The notes under the pieces: model-generated
Database searches by the model: none
What the model was told of the DNA's origin: nothing
The model's input: the letters and a program-made list of their open reading frames with translations, nothing else
Part shown: one piece after another, positions 24,459-39,380 of the stretch
Layout of the letters: every line of letters starts with the position of its first letter
How positions within the stretch are numbered: the stretch's first letter is position 1
Position numbers and translations under genes: made by a program
Origin: Saccharothrix saharensis
Lineage (GTDB): Bacteria; Actinomycetota; Actinomycetes; Mycobacteriales; Pseudonocardiaceae
Direction: 5' to 3'
DNA length: 64,000 nt
Assembly (NCBI RefSeq): GCF_006716745.1
Contig: NZ_VFPP01000001.1
Location: 744,001 to 808,000, forward strand

Positions 24459-24472
24459 GCTCACGAACGTGA
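24456..24472 (+). promoter_or_regulatory. Possible leaderless promoter with palindrome over the hydroquinone reductase start
   Basis: TAGGCT (24456-24461) is a fair -10 box placed so that transcription would begin at the GTG (24469). TCACG-AA-CGTGA (24461-24472) is a palindrome spanning the start codon. It may be an operator. The -35 is weak. Confidence 0.35.
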
Positions 24473-25533
24473 GTGATACTTCGACATCCGCGGCGGACCA
24501 GGGCAATCCCGAGCACGAGCGGGGCGGCACGTACTCGGTCAAGGGGAAGGAGTACACCCGCGACACGCGGTACATCACGACCCGCGTCACGGCGGACGGG
24601 CGGGACGGCTACCCGGTCGAGGCCGGGCGGTACCGGCTGGTGGCGGCGCGGGCGTGCCCCTGGGCCAACCGGTCGATCATCGTCCGCCGGTTGCTCGGGC
24701 TGGAGGACGTCCTCTCGCTCGGGCTGCCCGGACCCACGCACGACGAGCGGTCGTGGACGTTCGACCTCGACCCGGGCGGGCGGGACCCCGTGCTGGGCAT
24801 CGAGCGGTTGCAGGAGGCCTACTTCAAGCTCGACCCCGGGTACCCGCGCGGCATCACGGTGCCGGCGATCGTCGACACGACGACCGGCGCGGTGGTGACC
24901 AACGACTTCGCGCAGATCACGCTGGACCTGTCCACCGAGTGGCGCGAGCACCACCGCGACGGCGCGCCGGACCTGCTGCCGGTGCGGCACCTCGACGAGG
25001 TCGAAGCGGTCAACCAGCGGGTCTTCACCGAGGTCAACAACGGCGTGTACCGGTGCGGGTTCGCGGGCACGCAGCAGGCGTACGACGACGCGTACGCCCG
25101 GCTGTGGACCGCGCTGGACTGGTTGGAGGAACGACTGAGCGGGCAGCGGTACCTCGTCGGCGACACGATCACCGAGGCCGACGTGCGGCTGTTCACCACG
25201 CTGGTGCGCTTCGACCCGGTCTACCACGGGCACTTCAAGTGCAACCGGAACAAGCTGGCCGAGATGCCGGCGCTGTGGGCGTACGCCCGTGACCTGTTCC
25301 AGACGCCCGGGTTCGGCGACACGGTCGACTTCACGCAGATCAAGCAGCACTACTACCTGGTGCACAAGGACATCAACCCGAACGGGATCGTGCCCGCGGG
25401 GCCGGACCTGTCCGGCTGGGTCACGCCGCACGGGCGGGAAGCCCTCGGCGGGCGGCCGTTCGGCGACGGCACGCCGCCCGGTCCGGTGCGCGACGGTGAA
25501 CGGGTGGACCCGGCGCACACGCCGTTGCGGTGA
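24469..25533 (+). CDS. Glutathionyl/mycothiol-hydroquinone reductase (Xi-class GST fold)
   Basis: The 354-aa product is a Xi-class glutathione-transferase-like enzyme that reduces thiol-conjugated hydroquinones. The catalytic C63 lies in ARACPWANRS of the thioredoxin-fold N-terminal domain (about 45-170). The C-terminal helical domain carries the conserved YHGHFKCNRNKL segment and LVHKDINPNGIVPAGP near the end. Actinomycetes lack glutathione, so the natural thiol is probably mycothiol; this is inferred. The GTG at 24469 starts 10 bp after the previous stop, with no ribosome site, and a -10-like box suggests its own leaderless transcript. It is followed by a 9-bp stem terminator and the first 22-bp repeat array. 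Confidence 0.92.
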   Translation: MSDTSTSAADQGNPEHERGGTYSVKGKEYTRDTRYITTRVTADGRDGYPVEAGRYRLVAARACPWANRSIIVRRLLGLEDVLSLGLPGPTHDERSWTFDLDPGGRDPVLGIERLQEAYFKLDPGYPRGITVPAIVDTTTGAVVTNDFAQITLDLSTEWREHHRDGAPDLLPVRHLDEVEAVNQRVFTEVNNGVYRCGFAGTQQAYDDAYARLWTALDWLEERLSGQRYLVGDTITEADVRLFTTLVRFDPVYHGHFKCNRNKLAEMPALWAYARDLFQTPGFGDTVDFTQIKQHYYLVHKDINPNGIVPAGPDLSGWVTPHGREALGGRPFGDGTPPGPVRDGERVDPAHTPLR

Positions 25534-25538
25534 GGCGG

Positions 25539-25562
25539 GCCGGGGGAACCCGCTCCCCCGGC
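25539..25562 (+). terminator. Terminator of the hydroquinone reductase gene
   Basis: GCCGGGGGA (25539-25547) and TCCCCCGGC (25554-25562) form a perfect 9-bp stem with a 6-nt loop, five bases after the stop codon. Confidence 0.8.
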
Positions 25563-25572
25563 TCCTCCCGCG

Positions 25573-25682
25573 ACCTGAACGTGGAACTCACGGGACCTGA
25601 GCGTTCGACTCACGGGACCTGAACGTTCGACTCACGGGACTTGAGCGTTCGACTCACGGGACGCGAGCGTTCGGTTCGCGGG
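25573..25682. repeat. Five tandem 22-bp hairpin-forming units (array 1)
   Basis: Five exact-length 22-bp units start at 25573, 25595, 25617, 25639 and 25661. Units 2-4 share the core TGAGCGTTCGACTCA (or close variants) followed by CGGGAC; unit 5 is degenerate. Each unit can fold: CCTGAG and CTCA(c)GG pair around a 7-nt loop. The array lies between convergent genes, and its last two units encode the C-terminus and stop of the LacI regulator. The same repeat recurs at 37340-37405. Confidence 0.9.
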
Positions 25683-26730
25683 GTGGGCAGGTGCTCTCGC
25701 GGACGACCAGCTCCGTGGCGAGGTCTATGCGCTCGTTCGGCGGGCGTTCGCCGCGCGCCAGGCTGAACACCATCTGCGCCGCCGTGGTCGCCATCTCGCG
25801 CAACGGCTGCCGCACCGTGGTCAGCTGGGGCCCTATCCACTCGGTGACCGACAGGTCGTCGTAGCCCACGATCGACAGGTCGTCCGGAATGGACAGACCC
25901 AGCTCGCGCGCCGCCCGCATGACGCCGAGCGCCTGGAAGTCCGACCCCGCGAAGATCGCCGTCGGCCGGTCCGGACGGCTCAGCAGCGCCATCCCGTGGT
26001 TGTACCCGCCCTGCACGTAGAAGTCGCCGTACCGCACGAAATCCGGGTCCACGACCACGTCCGCGTCCTCCAGCGCGCTGCGGTACCCGTCGACCCGCGC
26101 ACGGCTGCACAGCATGGTGGTGGGACCGGAGATCACCGCGATCCGGCGGTGGCCGAGCGCGAGCAGGTGCCGGGTCGCGGCCAGGCCGCCCGCCCAGTTC
26201 GCCGAGCCCACGGTCGGCACGCCGGGTGGCGGCTCGCCGGCGGTGTCCACGAACACGAACGGGATGTTGCGCGTGGTGAGCTGACGGCGCTGCTCGGCGT
26301 CCAGCCCCGCCAGCACCAGGATCACGCCGAGCGGACGGCGGGCCAGCAGGTCGTCGAACCACTCGCGGCGCGGTCGGTGCTCGCCGCCCAGCTCGGACAG
26401 CACCACGGCGGCGCGCTCGTTCGCCGCGGCCAGCTCCACCCCGCGGATGATCTCGGTCGACCACGCCGAGTGCATCTCGTGGAACACCAGGTCGATCAGC
26501 GCGGGCCGGGACGACTGCCGCGCTCGTCGTCGGCGGTACCGGTGCTGCTCGATGATGCTCTCGACGCGGGCTCGCGTGTCCGGTGCCACGTCCGGTCGTC
26601 CGTTGAGGACCTTCGAGACGGTCGGGATGGACACGCCCGCCTCGGCGGCGATCGAGGAGATCGACGCCGCGCCCTTCACCGTCTTCTCCGGCACCGCGCC
26701 GGCGGCGTCCCGATCGGTCGACGAACTCAT
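25654..26730 (-). CDS. LacI-family regulator, probable xylan/xyloside repressor
   Basis: The 358-aa product has the LacI DNA-binding head (about 20-70: ISSIAAEAGVSIPTVSKVLNGRPDVAPDTRARV) and a periplasmic-binding-protein-like effector domain ending VVRESTCPPRE. ATG 26730 has AGGGGGCAGC before it. It is divergent from the GH3-transporter-GH39-GH42 operon, so it most likely represses that operon and releases it when a xylo- or aldouronic oligosaccharide binds; the ligand is inferred. Palindromes that may be its operators occur in the gap, one over its own promoter, suggesting autoregulation. Oddly, its last codons and stop are formed by the 22-bp repeat array. Confidence 0.92.
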   Translation of the reverse strand: MSSSTDRDAAGAVPEKTVKGAASISSIAAEAGVSIPTVSKVLNGRPDVAPDTRARVESIIEQHRYRRRRARQSSRPALIDLVFHEMHSAWSTEIIRGVELAAANERAAVVLSELGGEHRPRREWFDDLLARRPLGVILVLAGLDAEQRRQLTTRNIPFVFVDTAGEPPPGVPTVGSANWAGGLAATRHLLALGHRRIAVISGPTTMLCSRARVDGYRSALEDADVVVDPDFVRYGDFYVQGGYNHGMALLSRPDRPTAIFAGSDFQALGVMRAARELGLSIPDDLSIVGYDDLSVTEWIGPQLTTVRQPLREMATTAAQMVFSLARGERPPNERIDLATELVVRESTCPPREPNARVP

Positions 26731-26774
26731 GCTGCCCCCTGTCCGCGTCACGGTCCGCGCCCCGCACACCGGTT

Positions 26775-26785
26775 CTAAAGTTTCG
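26775..26785. promoter_or_regulatory. Candidate LacI operator (regulator side)
   Basis: CTAAAGTTTCG differs at one position from the palindrome CGAAA-N-TTTCG, a form known from actinomycete xylanase promoters. It lies about 50 bp upstream of the LacI start codon, near its probable transcription start. Confidence 0.5.
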
Positions 26786-26797
26786 ACGGCCGAGCGT

Positions 26798-26812
26798 AAA
26801 GGTTCGACCTTT
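26798..26812. promoter_or_regulatory. Perfect 15-bp inverted repeat near the LacI promoter
   Basis: AAAGGT-TCG-ACCTTT (26798-26812) has perfect 6-bp arms. On the minus strand it covers the spacer before a possible -10 (TACGCT) of the LacI gene. Candidate autoregulatory operator. Confidence 0.5.
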
Positions 26813-26922
26813 CGACCACCAGCATGACGGCTTGGAGCATTACTCCATTAACGCAAAAGGGGCGCCTCTTCCAGGCCTGTTCATACCTGTGAACTGCGAA
26901 GACACAGGAAGGACACGGACTG

Positions 26923-26951
26923 TTGACGTCTTGCGGAGATCCTCCTACGGT
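26923..26951 (+). promoter_or_regulatory. Promoter of the xylan operon
   Basis: TTGACG (26923-26928), a 17-bp spacer and TACGGT (26946-26951) form a good housekeeping-type promoter. Transcription should start near 26958, leaving a 5' leader of about 73 nt before the GH3 ATG. Confidence 0.7.
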
Positions 26952-26984
26952 CTCCCCACCGGATCGGCATGTCGGAAAGTACTT

Positions 26985-26995
26985 CGATAGTTTCG
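26985..26995. promoter_or_regulatory. Candidate LacI operator downstream of the GH3 promoter
   Basis: CGATAGTTTCG matches CGAAA-N-TTTCG with one mismatch. It lies about 27-37 bp downstream of the predicted start site, where a repressor would block elongation. Its partner is the site at 26775. Confidence 0.5.
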
Positions 26996-27030
26996 GTCTT
27001 CACGCGGATGTGAGCGGGGGTACCTGGTCG

Positions 27031-29427
27031 ATGATGAACAGGACGACGGAGGTCGCGACGACGCCGGTGGGCGACGCCGTCCCGACTGCCGCCGACCAGC
27101 CGAACGCGACGTGGCGGGACGTCTCGCTGCCCGCCGCCGAACGGGCCGACGCGCTCGTCGCCGCGATGACGCTCGAGGAGAAGCTCGCGCAGCTCGTCGG
27201 CGTCTGGGTCGGCGCGGACCCGTCCGGCGCCGGGGTGGCCCCGCACCAGCACGACATGACGAGCGAACCCGTGGTCTGGGCGGACGTCATCTCCTCCGGC
27301 CTCGGCCAGCTCACCCGACCGTTCGGCACCCGGCCGGTCGACCCGGTCGCCGGCGCCCGGTCCCTGGCCGCGTCGCAGCGGGAGGTGGCCGAAGCCAACC
27401 GGTTCGGCATCCCGGCCCTGGTGCACGAGGAATGCCTCACCGGCTTCGCCGCGTGGCAGGCCACCGCCTACCCCTCGCCGCCGGCCTGGGGCGCGTCGTT
27501 CCACCCCGAGCTGGTGGCCGAGATGTCCGGCCTGATCGGCCGCTCGATGCGCGCGGCGGGCGTGCACCAGGGGTTGGCGCCGGTCCTGGACGTCACCCGC
27601 GACTACCGCTGGGGCCGCACCGAAGAGACCATCGGCGAAGACCCGTACCTCGTCGGCACGGTCGCCACCGCCTACGTGCGCGGCCTGGAGCAGGCCGGGA
27701 TCGTGGCCACGCTCAAGCACTTCGCCGGGTACTCCGCCTCCCGCGCCGGGCGCAACCTCGCGCCGGTGGCCATCGGGCCGCGCGAGTTCGCCGACGTGAT
27801 CCTGCCGCCGTTCGAGATGGCCGTGCGCGATGGCGGCGTGCGCTCGGTCATGCAGTCCTACACCGAGATCGACGGCGTGCCGTCCGCCGCCGACGCCGGC
27901 CTGCTCACCACGCTCCTGCGCGACACGTGGGGCTTCGACGGCACGGTGGTCGCCGACTACTTCGCGGTCAAGTTCCTGCAGACGCTGCACGGGGTCGCCG
28001 AGGACGAGGCGCACGCCGCCGGACTGGCCCTGGCCGCCGGTGTGGACGTGGAGCTGCCGACCGTGCGCTGCTACGGCAACCCGCTGCGCGATGCGGTCGA
28101 GCGCGACGACGTGGACGAAGCGCTGGTCGACCGGGCGTTGCGCCGGGTGCTGCGCCAGAAGGTCGAACTCGGCCTGCTCGACCCGGACTGGACGCCGCTC
28201 CCCGCGGGCGTCGACGAGCTGCGGCTGGACTCGCCCGAAGCCCGGGACGTCACGCTGCGGCTCGCGCGCGAGTCCCTGGTCCTGCTCGCCAACGACGGCG
28301 TCCTGCCGCTGCGGCCGGACGTGCGGCTGGCCGTGGTCGGGCCGCTCGCGGACGACCCGATGGCGATGCTCGGCTGCTACTCGTTCCCCGCGCACATCGG
28401 CGTGCACCACCCGGACAGCGGGCTCGGCCTGGACATCCCGACCGTGCTGTCCTCGCTGCGCGACGCCGTGGGCGGCGACATCGCCCACGCCAAGGGCTGC
28501 GAGGTCGCCGCCGAACCCGACGCCGACGACATCGCGGCCGCCGTGGCCGCCGCACGGGACGCTGACGTGTGCGTGGTCGCCGTGGGCGACCTGGCGGGGC
28601 TGTTCGGGCGGGGCACGTCGGGCGAGGGGTGCGACGCGACCGACCTGAACCTGCCCGGCGCGCAGGCCGACCTGGTCCGCGCGGTCCAGGCCACCGGCAC
28701 GCCCGTCGTGCTGCTGCTCGTCACCGGCCGCCCGTACGCGATCGGCGACCTGGCCGACGGCTCGGCGGCGGTCGTGCAGGCCTTCTTCCCCGGCCAGCTC
28801 GGCGGCCGGGCCATCGCCGACGTGCTGACCGGCGCGGTGTCGCCGTCGGGCCGGCTGCCGCTCGGCATCCCGGGCGACCCCTCCGGCCAGCCGGGCACCT
28901 ACCTGTCCGCACCGCTGGGTCGGCGCACCGAAGTGTCCAACGTGGACCCGACGCACGCCTTCCCGTTCGGCCACGGCCTGGGCTACGACACGTTCACGTG
29001 GTCGCCCGTGCGCGTGACCCCGGGCGACCGGCCGTGGGCCACCGACGGCGACGTGGAGCTGGAACTGGACGTCCGCAACCCCGGTACGCGCGCCGGCGCG
29101 GACGTGGTGCAGCTCTACCTGCACGACCCCGTCGCGCAGGTCACCCGCCCGGTCGTGCGGCTCATCGGCTACGCGCGGGTGGAGCTGGCCGGCGGCGCGT
29201 CGGCGCGCGTCACGTTCCGGGTGCCGTCCGACGCCACGTCGTTCACCGGCCTCGGCGGGCGGCGCGTGGTCGAGCCGGGCGCGGTGCAGCTGCGCGTGTC
29301 CCGGTCGAGCGCCGACGTGCACGAAGCGGTGGACCTCGACCTCGTCGGCCCGCTGCGCGAAGTCGACCACACGCGGCGTTGGCTCACCGCCGTGTCGGTC
29401 ATCCACGAGGAGGTGGAGCGAGCATGA
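27031..29427 (+). CDS. GH3 beta-glycosidase, probable beta-xylosidase
   Basis: The 798-aa product has the GH3 (beta/alpha)8 barrel and the following alpha/beta sandwich. The nucleophile is D309 in GTVVADYFAV and the likely acid/base E532 in RGTSGEGCDATDLNLPG. The KHF motif (TLKHFAGYSASR) and the C-terminal fibronectin-III-like domain (FPFGHGLGYDTF onward) are also present. No signal peptide is seen, so it should act in the cytoplasm on imported oligosaccharides. Context (GH39, GH67, LacI) favours beta-xylosidase; other beta-glycosidase activities are possible. Adjacent ATGs at 27031 and 27034 are both usable. It is the first gene of the operon, and its stop overlaps the permease start (ATGA). 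Confidence 0.93.
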   Translation: MMNRTTEVATTPVGDAVPTAADQPNATWRDVSLPAAERADALVAAMTLEEKLAQLVGVWVGADPSGAGVAPHQHDMTSEPVVWADVISSGLGQLTRPFGTRPVDPVAGARSLAASQREVAEANRFGIPALVHEECLTGFAAWQATAYPSPPAWGASFHPELVAEMSGLIGRSMRAAGVHQGLAPVLDVTRDYRWGRTEETIGEDPYLVGTVATAYVRGLEQAGIVATLKHFAGYSASRAGRNLAPVAIGPREFADVILPPFEMAVRDGGVRSVMQSYTEIDGVPSAADAGLLTTLLRDTWGFDGTVVADYFAVKFLQTLHGVAEDEAHAAGLALAAGVDVELPTVRCYGNPLRDAVERDDVDEALVDRALRRVLRQKVELGLLDPDWTPLPAGVDELRLDSPEARDVTLRLARESLVLLANDGVLPLRPDVRLAVVGPLADDPMAMLGCYSFPAHIGVHHPDSGLGLDIPTVLSSLRDAVGGDIAHAKGCEVAAEPDADDIAAAVAAARDADVCVVAVGDLAGLFGRGTSGEGCDATDLNLPGAQADLVRAVQATGTPVVLLLVTGRPYAIGDLADGSAAVVQAFFPGQLGGRAIADVLTGAVSPSGRLPLGIPGDPSGQPGTYLSAPLGRRTEVSNVDPTHAFPFGHGLGYDTFTWSPVRVTPGDRPWATDGDVELELDVRNPGTRAGADVVQLYLHDPVAQVTRPVVRLIGYARVELAGGASARVTFRVPSDATSFTGLGGRRVVEPGAVQLRVSRSSADVHEAVDLDLVGPLREVDHTRRWLTAVSVIHEEVERA

Positions 29428-30413
29428 CCACCCAGATCAGCGAACCGGCGGCCGACACCGCACCGGACAAGCCCGGGAGACCACCGGGAACGGCCAGGTC
29501 ACCGCGGTACAGGACCACGTGGCGCAAGGCGTTCAAGCGCGACTGGCAGCTCTACACGCTGGTCATCGTCCCGCTGCTGTTCTTCCTCGTCTTCCGGTAC
29601 GCGCCGATGCTCGGCAACGTCATCGCGTTCCGCAAGTTCGTGCCGGGCGGCAGCATCTACGGCGAGACGTGGGTCGGCCTGCGCTACGTCAAGATGTTCA
29701 TCAACGACCCGAACTTCTGGGAGGTCTTCGGCAACACGATGGCGCTCGGCGCGCTGTCGCTGGTGTTCACCTTCCCGTTGCCGATCGTGCTCGCGTTGCT
29801 GCTCAACGAGGTCCGCTCGCGCTACTTCAAGCGGTTCGTGCAGACGGTGTCCTACCTGCCGCACTTCCTGTCGATCGTGATCGTGGCCGGCATGGTGATG
29901 CAGCTCGTGTCGCTGGAGGGCACGGTCAACCAGGTCGTGCGCGCCCTCGGCGGCGAGGCGGTCTCGTTCATCCAGGACCCGAGCTGGTTCCGCACGATCT
30001 ACGTCTCCTCCGAGGTCTGGCAGACCGTCGGCTGGGGCACGATCCTCTACCTGGCCGCGCTGACCACGATCGACTCCCAGCTCTACGAAGCGGCCCGGAT
30101 CGACGGCGCGAACCGCTGGCAGCAGACCTGGCACGTGACGCTGCCCGGCATCCGGCCCACGATGATCACGCTGCTGATCCTCAACATCGGCACGTTCATG
30201 GCGGTCGGGTTCGAGAAGGTCCTGCTGCTGTACAACCCGCTGACCTACCCCACCGCGGACGTCATCTCGACCTACCTCTACCGGGTCGGCCTGGTGTCCA
30301 ACAACTTCAGCTACGCCGCCGCGATCGGCCTGTTCGAGTCGGTCATCGGCCTGACGCTGATCCTGTCCGCCAACGCGATCTCGCGCCGAACAGTGGGGAC
30401 GAGCCTGTGGTGA
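29424..30413 (+). CDS. LplB-type carbohydrate ABC transporter permease
   Basis: The 329-aa product is a six-helix permease of the CUT1 subfamily used for large oligosaccharides (LplB/YteP type). After a hydrophilic, Pro-rich N-terminus come the first helix (YTLVIVPLLFFLVFRYAPML) and the segment NVIAFRKFVPGGS typical of Lpl permeases. The cytoplasmic EAA loop (YEAARIDGANRWQQTWHVTL) contacts the ATPase. No ATPase gene is in the operon; as in many actinomycetes a shared MsiK-like ATPase encoded elsewhere is presumably used. ATG 29424 overlaps the GH3 stop, and its own stop overlaps the next gene. Confidence 0.93.
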   Translation: MTTQISEPAADTAPDKPGRPPGTARSPRYRTTWRKAFKRDWQLYTLVIVPLLFFLVFRYAPMLGNVIAFRKFVPGGSIYGETWVGLRYVKMFINDPNFWEVFGNTMALGALSLVFTFPLPIVLALLLNEVRSRYFKRFVQTVSYLPHFLSIVIVAGMVMQLVSLEGTVNQVVRALGGEAVSFIQDPSWFRTIYVSSEVWQTVGWGTILYLAALTTIDSQLYEAARIDGANRWQQTWHVTLPGIRPTMITLLILNIGTFMAVGFEKVLLLYNPLTYPTADVISTYLYRVGLVSNNFSYAAAIGLFESVIGLTLILSANAISRRTVGTSLW

Positions 30414-31345
30414 CCACCGACCCTTCGCGCGTCATGGAGCGGCTGGACAAGCCCGCGGGCGGGCGCCGCACGTCGCTGGACGACTCCCCCGGCTACCGGG
30501 CCTTCCGCGTGGTCAACACGATCGTGCTGCTCGGCGTGGTCGCGGTGACGCTGTACCCGTTCGTCAACATCGTGGCGCAGTCGTTCAGCAGCGAGGTCTA
30601 CATCCGCACCGGCCAGGTCAACCTGGTGCCGCGCGGGTTCAACCTCGACACCTACAAGCTGGTCGCCTCCGACCCCGCGTTCTGGAACAGCTACCTCAAC
30701 ACCGTCATCTACACCGTGACGGCCACCGCGATCTCGATCGTGCTCACCACGATCTACGCGTACGTGCTGTCCAAGCACCGGCTCAAGGGCCGCGGCCTGC
30801 TCGTCGGCATCGCGGTGTTCACCATGTTCTTCAACGGCGGCCTGATCCCGAACTACGTGCTGGTGAACGGCCTCGGGATGACCAACACGATCTGGGCGAT
30901 CGTGCTGCCGAACGCGATCAGCGTGTTCAACCTGCTCGTGATGAAGGCGTTCTTCGAGAGCCTGCCGACGGAGCTGGAGGAGGCCGCCGCGATCGACGGC
31001 CTGAACACCTACGGCATCCTGCTGCGCATCGTGCTGCCGCTGTCCAAGGCGGTGCTCGCCACCATGGTCCTGTTCTACGCGGTGGCGAACTGGAACTCCT
31101 GGTTCCAGGCGTTCCTCTACCTCGACCGGGCCGACCTGTTCCCGGTCACCGTGTACCTGCGGAACATGATCGCCGGCGCCACCTCGGCGACGTCGGTCGG
31201 CGCCGTCGAGACCAACGCCGTGGCCATCTCCGCCAACATCAAGGCCGTGACGATGGTGCTGACCGTCCTGCCCATCATCGCCGTTTATCCCTTCATCCAG
31301 CGCTACTTCGTGTCGGGCGTGATGCTCGGCGCGGTCAAGCAGTAG
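30410..31345 (+). CDS. LplC-type carbohydrate ABC transporter permease
   Basis: The 311-aa second permease of the transporter has the LplC/YtcP features: SPGYRAFRVVNTIVLLGVVAV, an IVAQSFSS motif after the first helix, TMFFNGGLIPNYVLVNGLGM in the middle, and the EAA loop LEEAAAIDGLNTYGILLRIV. It would form a heterodimer with the preceding permease. The GTG at 30410 overlaps the previous stop (GTGA); a GTG one codon earlier is also possible. A 51-bp gap with a GAGGAGA ribosome site leads into the binding protein gene. Confidence 0.93.
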   Translation: MTTDPSRVMERLDKPAGGRRTSLDDSPGYRAFRVVNTIVLLGVVAVTLYPFVNIVAQSFSSEVYIRTGQVNLVPRGFNLDTYKLVASDPAFWNSYLNTVIYTVTATAISIVLTTIYAYVLSKHRLKGRGLLVGIAVFTMFFNGGLIPNYVLVNGLGMTNTIWAIVLPNAISVFNLLVMKAFFESLPTELEEAAAIDGLNTYGILLRIVLPLSKAVLATMVLFYAVANWNSWFQAFLYLDRADLFPVTVYLRNMIAGATSATSVGAVETNAVAISANIKAVTMVLTVLPIIAVYPFIQRYFVSGVMLGAVKQ

Positions 31346-31396
31346 CGCGTCCGCTCCGAGTTGACGACGGCGTCAATCACCTGAGGAGACAGCACG

Positions 31397-33028
31397 ATGC
31401 GAACCAAATGGAAGCGAACGCTTCTGACTGCCGTCGCCGGCAGCCTCGTGGTCAGCCTGGCCGCGTGCAGCGAGGAAGGCGCGGACGCCGGAGGCGGGGT
31501 CGACCTCGACGGCAAGAAGACCGCGTCGATGGCCGACTACAAGGCGGGCGCGCAGTTCAAGGCCACCGAGCCGGTCGACGTCAGCCTGCTCTACCTCGAC
31601 CAGTCACACTACCCGATCAAGGACGACTGGCTGCTGTGGAAGGAGATCACGCAGCGGACCAACGTCACGATCAAACCGACGGTCGTGCCCTACAGCGACT
31701 ACGACCAGAAGCGCGGCCTGCTGATCAGCTCGGGTGACGCGCCGACGATCATCTCCAAGACCTACCCGGGCCAGGAGGAGCAGTTCGTCTCCTCCGGCGC
31801 GATCCTCCCGGTGAGCGACTACATCGACCTGATGCCGCACTTTAAGGACAAGGTCGAGAGGTGGAAGCTCCAGCCGGAGCTGAACACGCTGCGCCAGGAG
31901 GACGGCAAGTTCTACGTGCTGCCCGGCATGCACGAGAAGCTCTGGCAGGACTACACGCTCGCGTTCCGCACCGACGAGCTGACGCGGCTGAACCTGCAGA
32001 CCCCGAAGAACTGGGACGAGGTCTACACCGTCCTCAAGGCGATCAAGGCGGCGAACCCGGACAGCTACCCGCTGTCGGACCGCTTCGAGGGCAAGTCGAT
32101 CCTCAACTACGCCGGGCAGACCTTCGGCACGCAGGCCGGGTGGGGTTACGTCAAGAACACGATCTGGAACGAGTCGGCGCAGAAGTACGAGCTCACCGGC
32201 GCGACCCAGGAGTACAAGCAGCTGGTCGAGTTCTTCCACAAGCTCGTCTCCGAGGGCCTGATGGACCCCGAGAGCTTCACGCAGAAGGACGACGCGGCGA
32301 TCCAGAAGTTCGCCAGCGGCAAGTCGTTCGCGATCAGCAGCAACGCGCAGAACATCGTCAACGACTACCGGCCGAACGTCTCCAAGATCCCCGGCGCGAC
32401 CGTGGCGAAGATCCCGCTGCCCGCCGGGCCCAAGGGTGACGTCATCCGCGGCACGCGCCTGGAGAGCGGCCTGATGGTGTCGGCCAAGGCGGCCGAGAGC
32501 GACAAGTTCGTCGCGACGATGCAGTTCATCGACTGGCTCTGGTACTCCGACGAGGCCCAGGAGTTCACCAAGTGGGGCGTGCTGGGCACGACCTACGACA
32601 AGGACGCGTCGGGCAAGCGGACGCTCAAGCCCGAGATCGCGTTCGGCGGCATGAACGTCGGCGCGCCGAAGAACCTCCAGCGCGACTTCGGCTTCCAGGG
32701 CGGTGTCTTCTACTACGGCGGCGCCAACGAGCTGCTGCAGTCGATGTTCACCGAGGAAGAAGTGGCCTTCCAGAAGACGATGGCCGACAAGAAGGTCCAG
32801 CCGCTGCCGCCGCCCGCGCCGCTGAACGAGGACGAGCGCGAGCGCGCCGCACTGCTGGAGAGCCCGCTCAAGGACTTCGTCACGCAGTCGACGCTGCAGT
32901 TCATCCTCGGCCAGCGCGACCTGTCCACGTGGGACGCCTACGTCAAGGAGCTGGAGGCGAAGGGCTCGAACGACCTCGTCGAGATCGTCAACGGCGCGCA
33001 CAAGCGCTACAAGGAGAAGAACGGCTGA
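31397..33028 (+). CDS. Oligosaccharide-binding lipoprotein of the Lpl-type ABC transporter
   Basis: The 543-aa product has a lipoprotein signal peptide ending in the lipobox LAAC (C24), followed by a short Gly-rich linker and a large binding domain of the LplA/YtcQ type, about 100 residues longer than ordinary CUT1 binding proteins and matched to Lpl-type permeases. Motifs include SSGDAPTIISKTYPGQ near residue 115-130 and many exposed aromatics (W, Y) expected for sugar stacking. Lpl-type systems often import aldouronic acids or rhamnogalacturonan oligomers; GH67 nearby supports glucuronoxylan fragments. Expression relative to GH39 is probably raised by the stem-loop just after its stop. Confidence 0.93.
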   Translation: MRTKWKRTLLTAVAGSLVVSLAACSEEGADAGGGVDLDGKKTASMADYKAGAQFKATEPVDVSLLYLDQSHYPIKDDWLLWKEITQRTNVTIKPTVVPYSDYDQKRGLLISSGDAPTIISKTYPGQEEQFVSSGAILPVSDYIDLMPHFKDKVERWKLQPELNTLRQEDGKFYVLPGMHEKLWQDYTLAFRTDELTRLNLQTPKNWDEVYTVLKAIKAANPDSYPLSDRFEGKSILNYAGQTFGTQAGWGYVKNTIWNESAQKYELTGATQEYKQLVEFFHKLVSEGLMDPESFTQKDDAAIQKFASGKSFAISSNAQNIVNDYRPNVSKIPGATVAKIPLPAGPKGDVIRGTRLESGLMVSAKAAESDKFVATMQFIDWLWYSDEAQEFTKWGVLGTTYDKDASGKRTLKPEIAFGGMNVGAPKNLQRDFGFQGGVFYYGGANELLQSMFTEEEVAFQKTMADKKVQPLPPPAPLNEDERERAALLESPLKDFVTQSTLQFILGQRDLSTWDAYVKELEAKGSNDLVEIVNGAHKRYKEKNG

Positions 33029-33034
33029 TCGGGC

Positions 33035-33070
33035 GGGTCCGGCCGCGGTGTCCACGCCGCGGCCGGACCC
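33035..33070 (+). terminator. Intra-operon stem-loop after the binding-protein gene
   Basis: GGGTCCGGCCGCGG (33035-33048) pairs perfectly with CCGCGGCCGGACCC (33057-33070) around an 8-nt loop. It lies between the binding protein stop and the GH39 ribosome site. It is likely a partial terminator or 3' mRNA stabiliser that makes the binding protein more abundant than the downstream hydrolases. Confidence 0.75.
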
Positions 33071-33088
33071 GATCGTCTTGGAGGGCAC

Positions 33089-34621
33089 TTGAACCGCGTC
33101 ACCGTCCCCGGCGAGCCGATCGGCCGCCTGTCCGAGTCGTGGCGCCACTGCGTGGGCACCGGCCGGCTCAACGTCGCGCTGCGCGCCGACTACCAGGAGT
33201 CCCTGGCCCTCGTGCAGCGCGACATCGGCTTCCGCCACATCCGCGGCCACGGCCTGCTGTCCGACGACATGGGCGTGCACCGCCGCTCGAACGACGGGGT
33301 GACCCGGTACTCGTTCACCTACGTCGACCAGGTCTTCGACCGGTTCCTGGAGCTGGGTGTCCGGCCGTTCGTCGAGCTGGGGTTCATGCCCACCGCGCTC
33401 GCCTCCGGCGACGACACCGTGTTCTGGTGGAAGGGCAACATCACCCCGCCGAACGACTGGGACGAGTGGGCCGCGCTGGTGCGCGCCGTCGTCCGCCACC
33501 TGGTCGACCGCTACGGCGCGGACGAGGTGCGCACCTGGCCGATCGAGGTGTGGAACGAGCCGAACCTGGTCAACTTCTGGAAGGACGCCGACCAGGAGGC
33601 CTACTTCCGCCTGTACGAGATCACCGCGCGGACCATCAAGGACGTCGACGCCGGACTCCAGGTGGGCGGCCCGGCGATCTCACCCGGCTCGGACGAGTGG
33701 TGGGAGCCGTTCGCCGAGTTCGTCACCCGCCGTGACGTTCCGGTCGACTTCGTCAGCAGGCACGCCTACACGTCCGGCCCCGCGCAGCACGTGCCGTTCG
33801 GCACGTACCAGACGCTGACCGCACCGCGCCACCTGCTGGACCAGTTCGACGCGCCCCGCAAGCACCTGGCGGGCACCGCGCTGGCCGGGCTGCCCGTGCA
33901 CATCACCGAGTTCAACAGCTCCTACCGGCCGGACAACCCGATCCACGACACCGCCTACCACGCCGCCTACCTGGCCCCCGTGCTCACCGGCGGCACGGAC
34001 CTGGTGGACTCCTACTCCTACTGGACGTTCTGCGACGTCTTCGAGGAGGAGAACGTGCCGACCTCGCTGTTCCACGGCGGTTTCGGCCTGCTCACGCACC
34101 GGCAGGTGCCCAAGCCGACCTACCACCTGTACGCGTTCATGGCCCGGATGGGCACGCACGTCCTCGCCCGCGGCGCGGACCACCTGGTGTGCGCGACCGA
34201 CGACGGCCGGGTCACCGCACTGGCCTGGCAGCCCGTCGGCGGGACGGACGGACCGGACGCGCCCGAGCGGCACGACGTGCGGCTGTCGGTGCCGATGACG
34301 GGTCCGCGCGCGTTCGTCCGCCGGGAACGGGTCAACGAGCACGACGGCAACGCGTTCGGCGCGTGGCGCGAACTGGGCCGTCCCCGCTCACCCGGCCCGC
34401 GCACGCTCGACGTGCTGCGCGACTGCGCCCGTCCCGCCGTGGAGCACCGGTCGGCCGAGGTCGTGGCCGGGCGGGTCGCGCTGGACCTCGCGCTGGCCCG
34501 GCACGAGGTCACGTTCGTCGAAGTGGTCCCGGTGCACGCCGAAGAGCACGAGGGTCTGGACGACCGGCGGCTGCTCGGCGCGTCCGACGACCGGCTCGTG
34601 GCGCCGCACGAGAGGCGGTGA
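33089..34621 (+). CDS. GH39 beta-xylosidase
   Basis: The 510-aa product is a GH39 retaining glycosidase. The catalytic acid/base is E157 (IEVWNEPNLVNFW) and the nucleophile E274 (HITEFNSSY). N-terminal signatures of the family (SWRHCVGTGRLNVALR, GFRHIRGHGLLSDDM) are present, and a C-terminal beta-sandwich follows the barrel. Length matches bacterial XynB-type enzymes. The start is a TTG at 33089, chosen because GGAGG lies four bases before it and no ATG or GTG gives the conserved N-terminus. No signal peptide, so cytoplasmic, hydrolysing imported xylo-oligosaccharides. Alpha-L-iduronidase-like activity occurs in GH39 but does not fit the context. Confidence 0.92.
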   Translation: MNRVTVPGEPIGRLSESWRHCVGTGRLNVALRADYQESLALVQRDIGFRHIRGHGLLSDDMGVHRRSNDGVTRYSFTYVDQVFDRFLELGVRPFVELGFMPTALASGDDTVFWWKGNITPPNDWDEWAALVRAVVRHLVDRYGADEVRTWPIEVWNEPNLVNFWKDADQEAYFRLYEITARTIKDVDAGLQVGGPAISPGSDEWWEPFAEFVTRRDVPVDFVSRHAYTSGPAQHVPFGTYQTLTAPRHLLDQFDAPRKHLAGTALAGLPVHITEFNSSYRPDNPIHDTAYHAAYLAPVLTGGTDLVDSYSYWTFCDVFEEENVPTSLFHGGFGLLTHRQVPKPTYHLYAFMARMGTHVLARGADHLVCATDDGRVTALAWQPVGGTDGPDAPERHDVRLSVPMTGPRAFVRRERVNEHDGNAFGAWRELGRPRSPGPRTLDVLRDCARPAVEHRSAEVVAGRVALDLALARHEVTFVEVVPVHAEEHEGLDDRRLLGASDDRLVAPHERR

Positions 34622-35316
34622 CGGTGTCCGCGCCACGACGGGGTGATCCCGCCGCCGAGATCGGGACTGGCATCCTGTCGCGCATCGCCTCGGTCGTGTA
34701 CTGGTTCGTCGTCATCGAGGCCATGATCGTGCTGACGACGGCCCCCGGGTTCCTCGCGCTGCTGTTCCTGGATCGCGGCGCGGGCAACGCGCCGCTGGTC
34801 GGGCTGTGCTTCGCCCCCGTCGGCCCGGCGCTGTCGGCCGCCGTCTACGCCTGGCGGGTGTTCCTGGCCGACCGGGACCTCTCCCCCGCCCGGCACTTCC
34901 GCCGCGGCTACCGGCTCAACTGGCTCGACGTGCTGCGCTGGTGGCTGCCCGCCCTGGCGGTGCTCACCGTGATCGGTTTCAGCCTGGCCAACCTGGAGCT
35001 CGCCGCCGTGCCCGCCGGGTACGGCCTCGTGCTGGTCGTCGTCGCCGTGGCCGTCCTGGTCTGGTCGACGCAGGCGCTGGTGCTGTCGTCCACGCTCTCC
35101 CTGCGCACCCGTGACACGGCACGCCTCGCGTCCTACTACCTGGCCGCACGGCCCGCGAGCGCGCTCGGCGCGTTGTCGTTGCTCGTCGCGGCCGGAGGGC
35201 TCGTCGTGCTCACCTCGGACTGGGTGCTCGCGCTGCTGGCCGCACCGTTCACCCTCCTCCTGCTGCGCAACGCCGAACCGGTACTGCGTGACGCCACGGA
35301 AAGGTTCACCGCGTGA
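34618..35316 (+). CDS. YesL family (DUF624) membrane protein
   Basis: The 232-aa integral membrane protein has about five hydrophobic segments, including YWFVVIEAMIVLTTAPGFLALLF near the N-terminus and paired helices at the C-terminus. This matches the DUF624/YesL family, which is repeatedly encoded beside Lpl-type ABC transporters and plant-polysaccharide hydrolases; its function is not established, and an accessory role in the transporter is the usual guess. Start GTG 34618 overlaps the GH39 stop; a second GTG at 34624 is possible. Its own stop overlaps the GH42 start. Confidence 0.85.
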   Translation: MTVSAPRRGDPAAEIGTGILSRIASVVYWFVVIEAMIVLTTAPGFLALLFLDRGAGNAPLVGLCFAPVGPALSAAVYAWRVFLADRDLSPARHFRRGYRLNWLDVLRWWLPALAVLTVIGFSLANLELAAVPAGYGLVLVVVAVAVLVWSTQALVLSSTLSLRTRDTARLASYYLAARPASALGALSLLVAAGGLVVLTSDWVLALLAAPFTLLLLRNAEPVLRDATERFTA

Positions 35317-37352
35317 CCTCGCAGATCATGCCCCCGAGCATCGGTTACGGCGGCGACTACAACCCGGAGCAATGGCCCCGGGAGGTCTGGGACGACGACT
35401 ACGCCGCGTTCAAGCTCGCCGGCATCAACACGGTCACGGTGGGTGTGTTCGCCTGGGCGCACCTGGAACCCGCCGAGTTCCGCTACGACTTCTCGACGCT
35501 GGACGCGATCGTGGAACGGGCGACGGCCGAGGGCATGCGGGTCGTGCTGGCGACCCCGAGCGGCGCGATGCCGCCGTGGCTGGCACGCAAGTACCCGGAC
35601 GCCTGCCGGGTCGACTTCGAGGGGCGGCGGCACGTCTACGGGCAGCGGCACAACGCCTGCCCCTCCTCGCGCGACTTCCGCCGTGCGGCCGTGGCGCTGG
35701 CAGGGCGGCTGGCACGGCGGTACGGGACCAACCCGGCGGTCGTGGCCTGGCACATCGGCAACGAGTACGGCGGCGCGTGCTGGTGCCCGGAGTGCGGCGA
35801 CGCGTTCCGCAAGTGGCTGCGCGGGCGCTACGGCTCGCTCGACCGGCTCAACGACGCGTGGAACACCACGTTCTGGTCCCACACGTTCACCAAGTGGTCG
35901 CAGATCGAGCCGCCGAACGCGTTGTCCGAGCACTGGCGCGGGCCCGACCACACCGCGTTCCAGGGCATCACGCTGGACTACAAGCGGTTCATGTCCGACC
36001 AGCTGCTCGAAGGGTTCCTGGCGGAGAAGGCGGCCATCCGCGAGCACGCGCCGGACACGCCCGTGACGACGAACATGATGGGCCTCTACCAGCCGATCGA
36101 CTACCACCGCTGGGCGCCGCACCTGGACTTCGCGTCGTGGGACAACTACCCGCCGGCGGACCGCTCGTCCACCCGCACGGCCGCGCGCATGGCGTTGACG
36201 CACGGGCTGATGCGCGGCCTGCGCGACGGCGACCCGTTCTGGGTGATGGAGCAGACCCCCTCGGTCACCGCGTCGCGTGACGTGAACCCGGTCAAGCGCC
36301 CCGGCGTGCTGCGGCTGTGGTCGTGGCAGTCGGTCGCGCACGGCGCGGACGCGGTGCTGTACTTCCAGCTCCGGCAGTCCCGCGGCGCGTGCGAGAAGTA
36401 CCACGGCGCCGTGCTCGACCACGCGGGCCGCACGGACACCCGCGTGTTCCGGGAGGTCGCCGAGGTGGGCGCCGAGTTCGCCCGCGTCGGTGACGCGGTG
36501 CTGGGCGGCCGCACCCCCGCGCGTGCCGCGCTGCTGGTCGACTGGGACAGCTGGTGGGCCGTCGAGATGTCCGACGGACCCAACCGCAACGTGCGCTACC
36601 TGGACGTCCTCACCACCTACCACCGCGCGCTGTGGCAGGCCAACGTGCCGCTCGACGTGGTGCCCGTGACCGCCGACCTGTCCGGCTACGAGGTCGTCGT
36701 CGCGCCGCTGCTGCACATGGTGAAAGGCGACCTGGCCGACCGGGTGACCGCGCTGGTGGAGCGTGGCGGCACGTTCGTCACCACCGCCCTGTCCGGCCGC
36801 GTGGACGAGGACGACAACGCGTTCCTGACCGATGTGCCGGGGCCGTTCGGGGCGCTGCTCGGCCTGCGGGTCGAGGAGACCGACGCGCAGCAGCCCGACG
36901 TGGTGAACCCCGTGACGCTGTTCGGCGCGGAGCACGACGCCCGGCACGTGTTCGAGGTCGTCGTGCCGGACGACGCCGAGGTGCTGGGCACCTACGGTGC
37001 CGACTTCTACGCCGGCACGCCCGCCGTGACGCGGTCCGCGCGGGGTCGTGGGCACGCCTGGTACGTCGCGACGCTGCTGGACGACTCGGGCGTGGACGCC
37101 GTCGTGCGCTCGGCCCTGGCCCACCACGACCTGCTCGGACCGCTCGCGGACAGCCCGGACGTCGAGGTGACCGACCGCATCACCGCAGACGGCACCCGCT
37201 ACCTGTTCATCCTGAACCACGGCCCCGCCCGCACGGTCCCGATCCCCGTGCCCGGCACGGACCTCCTGACCGACCGGCCGCTGAGTTCGGGCGAGCCCTT
37301 GGAGCTGCCCCCGACCGCCGTCCTGGTCGTCCGCTGCGATCCTGAACGTTGA
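35313..37352 (+). CDS. GH42 beta-galactosidase (or alpha-L-arabinopyranosidase)
   Basis: The 679-aa product has the GH42 barrel (about 1-390), trimerisation domain and C-terminal beta-sandwich. The acid/base is E151 (WHIGNEYGG) and the nucleophile E313 (WVMEQTPS). The zinc-binding Cys cluster is present as CWCPEC after the acid/base, with an earlier Cys in HNACPSS. Start GTG 35313 overlaps the DUF624 stop. There is no signal peptide. In a xylan operon it could remove galactose or L-arabinopyranose side groups. Its TGA lies inside the first unit of the second 22-bp repeat array. Confidence 0.94.
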   Translation: MTSQIMPPSIGYGGDYNPEQWPREVWDDDYAAFKLAGINTVTVGVFAWAHLEPAEFRYDFSTLDAIVERATAEGMRVVLATPSGAMPPWLARKYPDACRVDFEGRRHVYGQRHNACPSSRDFRRAAVALAGRLARRYGTNPAVVAWHIGNEYGGACWCPECGDAFRKWLRGRYGSLDRLNDAWNTTFWSHTFTKWSQIEPPNALSEHWRGPDHTAFQGITLDYKRFMSDQLLEGFLAEKAAIREHAPDTPVTTNMMGLYQPIDYHRWAPHLDFASWDNYPPADRSSTRTAARMALTHGLMRGLRDGDPFWVMEQTPSVTASRDVNPVKRPGVLRLWSWQSVAHGADAVLYFQLRQSRGACEKYHGAVLDHAGRTDTRVFREVAEVGAEFARVGDAVLGGRTPARAALLVDWDSWWAVEMSDGPNRNVRYLDVLTTYHRALWQANVPLDVVPVTADLSGYEVVVAPLLHMVKGDLADRVTALVERGGTFVTTALSGRVDEDDNAFLTDVPGPFGALLGLRVEETDAQQPDVVNPVTLFGAEHDARHVFEVVVPDDAEVLGTYGADFYAGTPAVTRSARGRGHAWYVATLLDDSGVDAVVRSALAHHDLLGPLADSPDVEVTDRITADGTRYLFILNHGPARTVPIPVPGTDLLTDRPLSSGEPLELPPTAVLVVRCDPER

Positions 37353-37405
37353 ACTCAGGGGTCCTGAACGTAGGACACACGCGGTCTGAGCGTTCGACAC
37401 ACGCT
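37340..37405. repeat. Three tandem 22-bp hairpin-forming units (array 2)
   Basis: Units at 37340, 37362 and 37384 are each exactly 22 bp and share the CTGAACGTT/CTGAGCGTTCGA core with array 1. The first contains the stop codon of GH42; the last supplies two of the three bases of the stop codon of the convergent GH67 gene. The array fills the whole gap between the two genes. Confidence 0.85.
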
Positions 37406-39380
37406 AGTGGATGGTGCGGGCGCGGGCGTCCGGCACGCCCGACTTGCGCCAGAAGTAGGTGTTCACCTGGTCCCGCCACTCCGTCGCGCACCGCAGCTGC
37501 TCCGCCAACAACGCGGCCACCCGCTCGTACACCTCGGACGGCACGTGCCCCTCGACCTTCGCCCACGTGTCCGCCATCCGCGCCACCTCGTCCCGGCCCG
37601 CGAAGTGGGTGTCGTAGATGTGCTGGATCACCGTCGTCCCGGAGTGCAGGACATGCCCGTACGGCACGTGGTGGAAGAACAGCAGCAGTTCGTCCGGGCA
37701 CGTCTCCACCGACTCGTACACCTCCCGCCACGGCTGCGGGAACTGGCCGGCGAAACCCGTGCCCGTGGCCCGCGTCCGGTCGACGCCCACCCCGTCGCGG
37801 TCGGCGAAGTGGTAGGTGCCCCACCGCGAGTACTCGTAGCCGTCGACGCTCGGACCGTAGTGGTCACCGGGGTTCACCATGAACCCGACCCCCAACGGCG
37901 CGGTGTACCGCTCGTACGTCAGCCACGAGCCGCCCATGACCTCGTGCAACGCCTCCCGCACCGCGGTGGTCTCGCCGAAGGTGAGGCCGATCCACTCGTC
38001 CAGCACGGCCTCCGACGCGACCCGGTCGTCCCACGCGAGCCGGCCGAACCCGAACAGGTTGGCCTGCGCCAGCGGGTGCCCGGTCCAGAACGGGTCGTCG
38101 CCGACGTTCGACACGGCCACCACACCACCCCCGGGCGCGGCGGCCCGCCCCGCGGCGATGTCGGCGACCGTCGGCCGATCGTCGCCCCACGGCCGGAAGC
38201 CGAGCATCTCCCGCCACTGCGGCACGAGGTGGCACACGTGCTTCTGCTGCCCGGTGTACTCCTGCGTCACCTGCAACTCGACCGCGAGCCGGGTCCGCGG
38301 CATCGCCGCGATCACCGGCGACAACGGCTCGCGGACCTGGAAGTCCACCGGACCGGCCTTCACCTGCAGCACCACGTTCGGGTCGAACGCGCCGTCCAGC
38401 GGGGCGAAGTGGTCGTACGCCGCCCGCGCCCGGTCCGTCGAGCGGTCACGCCAGTCCTGGTGGTGGTCGTAGACGAACGCGCGCCAGAACACCGTCCCGC
38501 CGAACGGGGCGAGCGCGCGGGCCAGCACGTTCGCGCCGTCCGCGTGGTCACGGCCGTAGGCGAACGGTCCGGGCTGGCCCTCCGAGTCGGCCTTGACGAC
38601 GTACCCGCCGAAGTCCGGGACCGCCGCGTACACCCGCGCCGTCGTGCGCGCCCACCAGTCCCGCACGGCCGGGTCGAGCGGGTCCGCGGTGGGCAGGCCG
38701 CCCAGCGTGATCGGCGCGGCGAAGCTCACCGACAGGTGCACCCTGATCCCGTGCGGTCGGAACACCTCGGCCAGTCGCACCACTTCGGGCAGCAGGTCGG
38801 TCAGCAGCCTGGCCTCGGTGCGGTGCACGTTGACGTTGTTCAACCCCACCCGGTTGACGCCGATCGAGCCGAGCAGCCGCGCGTAGGCGCGGGTCCGGGA
38901 CAGGTCGGCCCGGACCGCGCCGTCGGCGTAGAAGATCGAGCCGCCCGCGTACCCGCGTTCGACCTGCCCCATCACCGGGTGCACGTCGACGTTGTCCCAG
39001 TGGTCCAGCATCCGCACCGGCTGGCGCGGCGCGTGCCGCTTCGGCGGTGCCTCACCCGCGAACGCCGACTCGCCCAGCCGCACCACGTGGTGGAAGCCGT
39101 AGAGCAACCCCGGGCCGTCGACCGCGCGGACCACCGTGGTCGTGCCCGCGCGCCCCACCACGAACGCCTCGGGGTCGGTCTCCCCGGCGTCGGGCGCGCA
39201 GACCAGCTCCAGGTCCACCGGACCGTCGTCGACCAGCGCACCGCCGTGCTCGGCCGCCGCCGCTCCGATCTCGCCGCGCACCGTGGCGACGACCGGCCCC
39301 TCCCCGAGGACGCGGGTCCGCCGCGAGCCGATCGCCCGGAACGCGGAGGCGGGGAGCCAGGCGGGGTGCACGCCGATCAT
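37404..39380 (-). CDS. aguA: GH67 alpha-glucuronidase
   Basis: The 658-aa product matches GH67 along its length. It removes 4-O-methyl-glucuronic acid from the non-reducing end of aldouronic oligosaccharides released from glucuronoxylan. Visible family blocks are ARQPVRMLDHWDN-type (PVRMLDHWDNVDV), FGGYVVKADSEGQPGP in the barrel (region of a catalytic Glu), LQVTQEYTGQQKH, and the C-terminal FFHHVPYGH...SGTTVIQHIYDTH. No signal peptide, so it works on imported oligomers, matching the Lpl-type transporter in the facing operon. ATG 39380 has GGGAGGAAC upstream. The stop falls at the edge of the repeat array. Confidence 0.95.
   Translation of the reverse strand: MIGVHPAWLPASAFRAIGSRRTRVLGEGPVVATVRGEIGAAAAEHGGALVDDGPVDLELVCAPDAGETDPEAFVVGRAGTTTVVRAVDGPGLLYGFHHVVRLGESAFAGEAPPKRHAPRQPVRMLDHWDNVDVHPVMGQVERGYAGGSIFYADGAVRADLSRTRAYARLLGSIGVNRVGLNNVNVHRTEARLLTDLLPEVVRLAEVFRPHGIRVHLSVSFAAPITLGGLPTADPLDPAVRDWWARTTARVYAAVPDFGGYVVKADSEGQPGPFAYGRDHADGANVLARALAPFGGTVFWRAFVYDHHQDWRDRSTDRARAAYDHFAPLDGAFDPNVVLQVKAGPVDFQVREPLSPVIAAMPRTRLAVELQVTQEYTGQQKHVCHLVPQWREMLGFRPWGDDRPTVADIAAGRAAAPGGGVVAVSNVGDDPFWTGHPLAQANLFGFGRLAWDDRVASEAVLDEWIGLTFGETTAVREALHEVMGGSWLTYERYTAPLGVGFMVNPGDHYGPSVDGYEYSRWGTYHFADRDGVGVDRTRATGTGFAGQFPQPWREVYESVETCPDELLLFFHHVPYGHVLHSGTTVIQHIYDTHFAGRDEVARMADTWAKVEGHVPSEVYERVAALLAEQLRCATEWRDQVNTYFWRKSGVPDARARTIH

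Follow-up and report, generated by a model that had tools for sequence, protein, structure and literature searches.

Introduction

How transcription ends between convergent genes in high-GC actinobacteria without U-tract terminators is, to our knowledge, not well known. MIRU elements, also tandem repeats, sit where genes meet and include stop codons; their units are longer than those described below and lie mostly between co-directional genes. DNA uptake sequences are single words, not phased arrays, and for BIMEs a relief of supercoiling beyond gene ends by gyrase or a nucleoid protein has been proposed.

Convergent or tandem placement near gene 3' ends, together with stop codons supplied by the repeat, is described for tagged REPs in part of one study (PMC3733652), and the persistence of REPINs is the topic of another (PMC8049555). 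Parts of two further studies describe bacterial stem-loops that favour convergent gaps and positions just behind stop codons (PMC1590033, PMC6060812), and part of the former describes paired DNA uptake sequences, used as terminators, in which a short conserved word stands between genes as inverted pairs (PMC1590033).

The actinobacterium analyzed here and many of its relatives carry, at gene ends, tandem repeats spaced by exactly two turns of DNA. No published description of such phased gene-end arrays was found among the matches listed for the open-licence literature, taking titles and abstract openings. Most of these short repeats abut stop codons, and they probably mark the boundaries of genes. 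Two possibilities present themselves: a system of terminators or insulators that has a factor of its own, or a repeat of REP type whose spread does not depend on the known REP transposase. An ordered, phased family at stop codons, retained at orthologous sites while its core shifts, offers a direct test of these alternatives.

Two arrays at convergent gene junctions

The window, that is, the whole 64,000-nt stretch of DNA analyzed, covers positions 744001-808000 of an 8.92-Mb single-contig genome. Two arrays of 22-bp units were found in it. By the gene calls both occupy convergent junctions, array 1 that of a GST-fold gene with a LacI-family regulator and array 2 that of the GH42 and GH67 genes. 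The features are, in order:

24469..25533, + strand: GST-fold gene, left of array 1 (gene call; Pfam GST_C_2 and GST_N_2)
25534..25568, + strand: strong ordinary hairpin, directly 3' of the GST-fold gene stop (fold energy)
25575-25684: array 1, five 22-bp units, a cap and four more (read from sequence; TRF period 22)
25575..25596, + strand: array 1 cap unit, GTGGAAC type (sequence; cap class from family survey)
25597..25684, + strand: array 1 units 2-5 (sequence, TRF)
25654..26694, - strand: LacI-family regulator (gene call; Pfam LacI and Peripla_BP_3; 12 orthologues)
35313..37352, + strand: GH42 gene (gene call; Pfam Glyco_hydro_42)
37342-37407: array 2, three 22-bp units, a cap and two more (read from sequence; TRF period 22)
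37342..37363, + strand: array 2 cap unit, GTTGAAC type (sequence; cap class from family survey)
37364..37407, + strand: array 2 unit 2 (GTAGGAC type) and unit 3 (GTTCGAC type) (sequence, TRF)
37404..39380, - strand: GH67 gene (gene call; Pfam Glyco_hydro_67)

An earlier reading of these letters, made from the sequence only, had placed the arrays at 25573-25682 and 37340-37405; on rereading, both start and end two bases later. Its count of five and three units stood, its description of one exactly repeated unit did not: the units are variants, array 1 ends in a degenerate fifth unit, and the caps are distinct, reading GTGGAAC or GTTGAAC where the other window units have GTTCGAC or GTAGGAC. Both arrays are halves, not full inverted elements. 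A 15-mer scan allowing up to 3 mismatches recovered seven of the eight units and gave no other match in the window, a result that is weak on its own because 3 of 100 shuffles also reached seven matches.

The same reading had the arrays supplying gene ends, and this was confirmed. The LacI stop codon (25654-25656) lies within unit 4 of array 1 and the final LacI codons within unit 5, which is translated as part of the protein. At the other junction the GH42 stop, TGA at 37350-37352, is inside the array 2 cap, and the GH67 stop, TAG at 37404-37406, overlaps the outer end of the array at the end of unit 3. The hairpin 3' of the GST-fold gene had a minimum free energy of -26.7 kcal/mol over 25534-25574 (z -2.39; 3 of 200 shuffles equal).

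A dispersed family next to stop codons

Searching the genome with TGARCGTTCGACTCACGGG and up to 2 mismatches gave 223 matches (112 + 111), compared with 0 + 0 for the reversed control. The two arrays therefore belong to a large dispersed family, as had been supposed, and the unit is far from absent elsewhere.

Placement was surveyed in 2.0 Mb of this genome (2.2-4.2 Mb), taken without choosing sites, using our own codon-bias gene calls trained on the same 2.0 Mb. The calls gave 1852 genes; neighbours were convergent in 328 pairs, divergent in 328 and tandem in 1195. A unit profile scan yielded 299 matches above 10 bits, versus 5 on the reversed sequence; removal of overlaps left 263 unit matches, which formed 58 clusters. 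Placement was not counted for fifteen clusters of a single unit, of which 11 lay inside genes, 2 were divergent and 2 tandem. The 43 clusters of at least two units were found in convergent gaps (23), in tandem gaps (19) and inside a called gene (1), some of the tandem labels possibly reflecting genes missed by our calls. None was divergent, where the share of non-coding bases would predict about a quarter of the clusters. The family thus prefers gene 3' ends, as anticipated from the window; the claim that it lies only at convergent ends holds for the two window arrays and fails for the family, with 19 of 43 clusters tandem.

An array edge lay within 12 nt of the matching stop codon in 36 of the 42 arrays of at least three units. 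Random placement in convergent gaps, drawn from gaps that include the array-bearing ones, gave a mean of 16.9 and a maximum of 28 in 1000 trials. Both edges were flush in 14 of the 42 arrays (null mean 6.3, highest 16); because this count stays under the null maximum, only the proximity of one edge goes beyond the null. Fifty-four gene ends fell in an array or within 14 nt of one. Seventeen of them abut the first unit exactly, and in 19 the stop codon is wholly within the array, although 4 of these 19 stops are at a depth of 48-98 nt and could be errors of gene calling. The supply of stop codons by the arrays is thus supported.

Element order and strict phase

Each half-element has the same order, a cap (consensus CTGAGCGTTGAACTCAGGGGTC) followed by 22-bp units (CTGAGCGTTCGACACTCGGGAC), the GTAGGAC-type unit being found mainly next to the cap. 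Full elements have their caps either inside (19 elements, the centre often being 17 nt) or outside (8 elements, seven with an 8-nt overlap). The remaining elements are halves, and half-arrays without a partner arm still hold the phase. The cap sequence GTTGAAY presumably resembles integron attC core sites, an identity that was considered and set aside.

Same-strand neighbours followed one another with neither gap nor overlap in 172 of 174 cases in this genome, in 51 of 55 in the related genome G251 and in 77 of 78 in Actinokineospora xionganensis (G228), where the period is 21; a looser scan found one 22-bp step (L323) among the otherwise 21-bp arrays of that species. Unit length is therefore conserved, despite 578 substitutions relative to the consensus among the 173 non-cap units of this genome. 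These substitutions pile up at certain positions and hardly occur elsewhere in the unit. The contrast is inflated by the unit-finding profile, which rewards conserved positions and may miss units that have insertions or deletions.

Adjacent units in this genome were no more alike than units from other elements. The phase is therefore not merely a residue of recent duplication, and array growth by local duplication was unsupported.

Orthologous sites and gene ends

The general core pattern had matches in 16 of 25 genomes of the genus (one with a single match) and none in the other 9; in Actinokineospora it matched 3 of 16 genomes, one of them once. Of the 249 genomes of the family, 23 had a match to a narrower pattern, in many cases a single one.

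Orthologues were searched for 8 of 41 loci, picked by hand, and presence or absence of an array was judged by eye from stretches of about 200-260 nt. Five array-bearing relatives retain an array at 25 of 40 orthologous sites (eight arrays), and two array-free relatives have no array at any of the 11 orthologous sites located. At these sites the core varies by species, reading TTCGAC, TAGGAC or TTGGAC; the core CTGARCGTNNGAC is common to three genera, and it is its two middle bases that change with the species. GTTCGA resembles what we take to be a LexA box half-site. This candidate was abandoned, as GTTCGA is missing from the TAGGAC and TTGGAC types.

At the first window junction, LacI extends about 5 codons beyond most of its 12 orthologues. 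The LacI array is common to this genome and G206, with an apparent remnant in G143 and none in the other ten genomes read. At the second junction, GH42 ends with four codons written by the junction, as judged by eye against one relative, and takes its stop from the cap. The GH67 stop is native, since 18 relatives end at the same position or one codon later, and the array there is confined to this genome among the 19 genomes with a GH67 gene. Array sequence has thus taken over a stop codon at both window junctions, that of LacI at one and that of GH42 at the other, in agreement with the earlier proposal that the repeat alters gene ends.

Arrays in other genera

A related unit is carried by four Saccharothrix species, among others; a cap-plus-unit pattern gave no match in a first scan of named genomes. 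Placement in other genera was scored for 84 clusters in 77 stretches from six organisms. The stretches come from a set of 80 out of 100, from which three of other lineages (L055, L084 and L096) were left out; the gene models of this genome were reused for the other genera and for pieces of 2-8 kb.

No more than 12 nt separated an edge from a stop codon in 26 of 41 clusters of S. coeruleofusca, where the two halves of one element were often counted as two clusters, in 16 of 27 of Actinophytocola and in 8 of 10 of Actinokineospora. The corresponding values were 22 of 31 for the wider A. xionganensis set and 10 of 20 for G251. Two clusters in S. coeruleofusca and two in G251 were called divergent. 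These calls may be due to missed genes, because models trained on this genome were reused on short pieces.

Folding and arm covariation

The arrays could act as RNA hairpins: the transcript of two inverted arms would form a long stem behind the stop codon and would end transcription or protect the mRNA, in both directions. A role of this kind, as putative terminator or RNA-decay barrier, is possible, and as an explanation of the family we consider the hairpin doubtful, if the best of the alternatives. Stable long stems form when whole inverted elements are folded (157 nt at -126.9 kcal/mol), which is to be expected of any inverted array. Array-bearing 3' ends had a fold z-score of -3.01, compared with -1.37 for array-free convergent ends. 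Relative to mononucleotide shuffles, the mean z-score of single arms was -2.37 when read in the unit direction and -1.48 when read in the opposite one. The raw energy of array-bearing ends, however, was not lower (-44.6 vs -47.5).

The halves in the window folded poorly in the directions of LacI (z -0.32, array 1) and of GH42 and GH67 (0.24 and -0.37 for the two directions of array 2). In the direction opposite LacI, array 1 had a z-score of -1.99, with 6 of 200 shuffles folding equally well or better. The short stem proposed for each 22-bp unit (CCTGAG with CTCA-c-GG) can be drawn on paper, but the strongest couplings within units do not fall on stem pairs. This and the poor folding of the window halves, which matched that of shuffles in the LacI, GH42 and GH67 directions, argue against a short hairpin of the unit as what makes the arrays work. 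A scan of 25400-25800 for T-tract terminators found none, array 2 has no run of T, and an Rfam scan of 24000-39000 with E up to 1 gave no match in either array. A single weak Rfam match was located at 33106-33174, outside both arrays.

The proposal of covariation had different outcomes in different species. In this genome, arm identity at variable positions was 0.691, versus 0.706 after shuffling (1766 of 2000 shuffles as high or higher), and in arm-swap folding own arms were better in 14 of 18 cases (p 0.024), which is weakly positive. Self-pairing of the centres between caps (55 of 121 pairs, 47.1 shuffled) is weak, because 141 of 2000 shuffles reach as many pairs. In A. xionganensis the arms matched in register (0.756 vs 0.655; 0 of 2000 shuffles), arms being paired by unit index and possibly one unit off if an inner unit was missed. 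Its arm changes were the same in both arms in 92 cases, differing in 16 and one-sided in 151; own arms folded better in 22 of 27 cases (p 2.2e-5), and perfect inverted repeats reached 85 bp. The own arm never gave the best match among the 19 elements here or the 12 in G251, and it did so for only 7 of 30 in A. xionganensis. Arm-to-arm covariation as a general rule was rejected: it fails in this genome (by unit) and in G251 (by arm), and holds in A. xionganensis. A stem would also have no need of the identical primary sequence seen across several genera.

Possible spread of the repeat

The family could instead be a selfish or neutral REP-like repeat that spreads by some route and survives at gene ends, where insertion is harmless. 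Gain and loss between species are consistent with this, both at the GH67 site and at the orthologous sites of the five relatives, and the placement is like that given for tagged REPs in the part of the study cited (PMC3733652). We nevertheless consider it unlikely. Y1_Tnp (RAYT) transposase had 0 matches in this genome, for which a RAYT-driven REP was rejected; movement by a REP transposase is thus unsupported. In the genus Y1_Tnp matched 5 of 25 genomes, three of them array-rich (G110, G250, G251), and none of the array-rich G143, G206, G253, G254 and G255.

There was also little sign of recent copying. The closest pair of half-elements had an identity of 0.955, compared with a mean of 0.950 after mixing units between elements, giving little support to a recent spread of one master copy. 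The mean nearest-neighbour identity, 0.888, was a little higher than in any of the 200 shuffles (0.879, highest 0.885). By this comparison half-elements resemble mixtures of units. For array 2, identity to the sampled half-elements did not exceed 0.833; the value for array 1 is void, the compared copy being shifted by one base. Neutral decay, moreover, would not give the strict phase and uneven constraint.

Binding of gyrase or a nucleoid protein to the arrays, relieving supercoiling past gene ends, would fit the 3'-end placement and the two-turn phase but is improbable, 19 of 43 clusters lying between tandem genes by our own gene calls.

A proposed protein-bound boundary

We favour the reading, with a rough probability of 0.37, that the arrays are gene-end boundary elements, phased sites for a putative sequence-specific factor that would bound transcription. 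In each half-element the sites would follow one another in a fixed order, first the cap and then at least two units, in a strict 22-bp phase of about two DNA turns and set against a stop codon. The working part would most likely be the DNA, to which the putative protein would bind at phased sites side by side. The bound protein array would halt RNA polymerase leaving the gene, and two inverted halves would serve two converging genes. The family itself, its order, phase and placement, the uneven constraint, the inheritance at orthologous sites and the core shifts between species are observed; the protein, and any effect on transcription, we infer. This reading was ranked first because the phase, the uneven constraint, the sequence shared across genera and the species-level core shifts fit a factor best.

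Some results point the other way. Arm covariation and own-arm folding in Actinokineospora, and slightly the latter in this genome, fit an RNA or DNA hairpin better than a protein. Against a boundary, the count of arrays flush at both edges is within the null and many arrays are between tandem genes.

A tentative extension of the protein-bound boundary is that, in a group of Pseudonocardiaceae, a dedicated DNA-binding protein and phased 21/22-bp arrays at stop codons would form a two-way transcription boundary. Co-evolution of site and protein would then shift the core dinucleotide, and the sites would vanish with loss of the protein.

Comparison with described systems

The arrays resemble REPs, BIMEs and REPINs in being many short dispersed repeats with inverted pairs, in their convergent and tandem placement near 3' ends and in supplying stop codons. 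The head-to-head and tail-to-tail pairs of REPs have counterparts in the 19 elements with caps inside and the 8 with caps outside. The arrays differ from REPs in their strict 21/22-bp tandem phase and distinct cap unit, and the GTAG/CGTC end tag is missing from the ends of the unit consensus: GTAG is confined to the interior of GTAGGAC-type units, a minority that has AG at positions 8-9 (20 of 173 non-cap units). The REP-like character first ascribed to the family thus holds for its placement and not for the tag or the Y1_Tnp transposase.

Whole inverted elements fold strongly, as do bidirectional stem-loop terminators. Unlike those, the arrays conserve primary sequence and phase, and in this genome their arms are unmatched unit by unit; the stem followed by a T run of intrinsic terminators is found neither in 25400-25800 nor, as to the T run, in array 2. 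With MIRUs, set beside the arrays by description only, they share tandem repeats at gene junctions with stop codons, and with paired DNA uptake sequences the inverted pairs, the conserved short word and the intergenic location.

Array 1 junction and array 2 neighbourhood

At the convergent junction of array 1 the following features were considered:
24469..25533 (+), GST-fold gene, opposite array 1
25534-25568, strong ordinary hairpin immediately 3' of the GST-fold gene stop
25575-25684, array 1
25654..26694 (-), LacI-family regulator gene

A comparable hairpin was present at this junction in the array-bearing relative G206. The GST-fold gene has a hairpin of its own; hence, the half-array (one arm) would serve the LacI gene only.

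For the GH67 gene adjoining array 2 (37404..39380, minus strand), the array-free relatives G256 and G224 showed 86-87% identity to the protein of S. saharensis, compared with 70-79% for most other proteins compared and 94% for one. This excess over most other proteins suggests that GH67 may have been transferred between lineages.

Other repeats at array sites

Visual inspection of Saccharothrix coeruleofusca stretches L073, L101 and L126 revealed a long GC-rich stretch in the centre between the caps (distinct first units). The stretch is apparently common to different elements, which gives the impression of a larger element nested inside the array.

At two sites (L268 and L250) lacking the array in G143, an array-bearing relative, a different repeat, common to both, was seen by eye in its place.

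At the site orthologous to S. saharensis array 3241090, a repeat of approximately 130 bp was visualized by eye in four relatives (L271, L272, L273 and L302), 3' of the same gene in all four. Its termini, also read by eye, are GATTTGACATGGG and its inverse, an appearance that is MITE-like.
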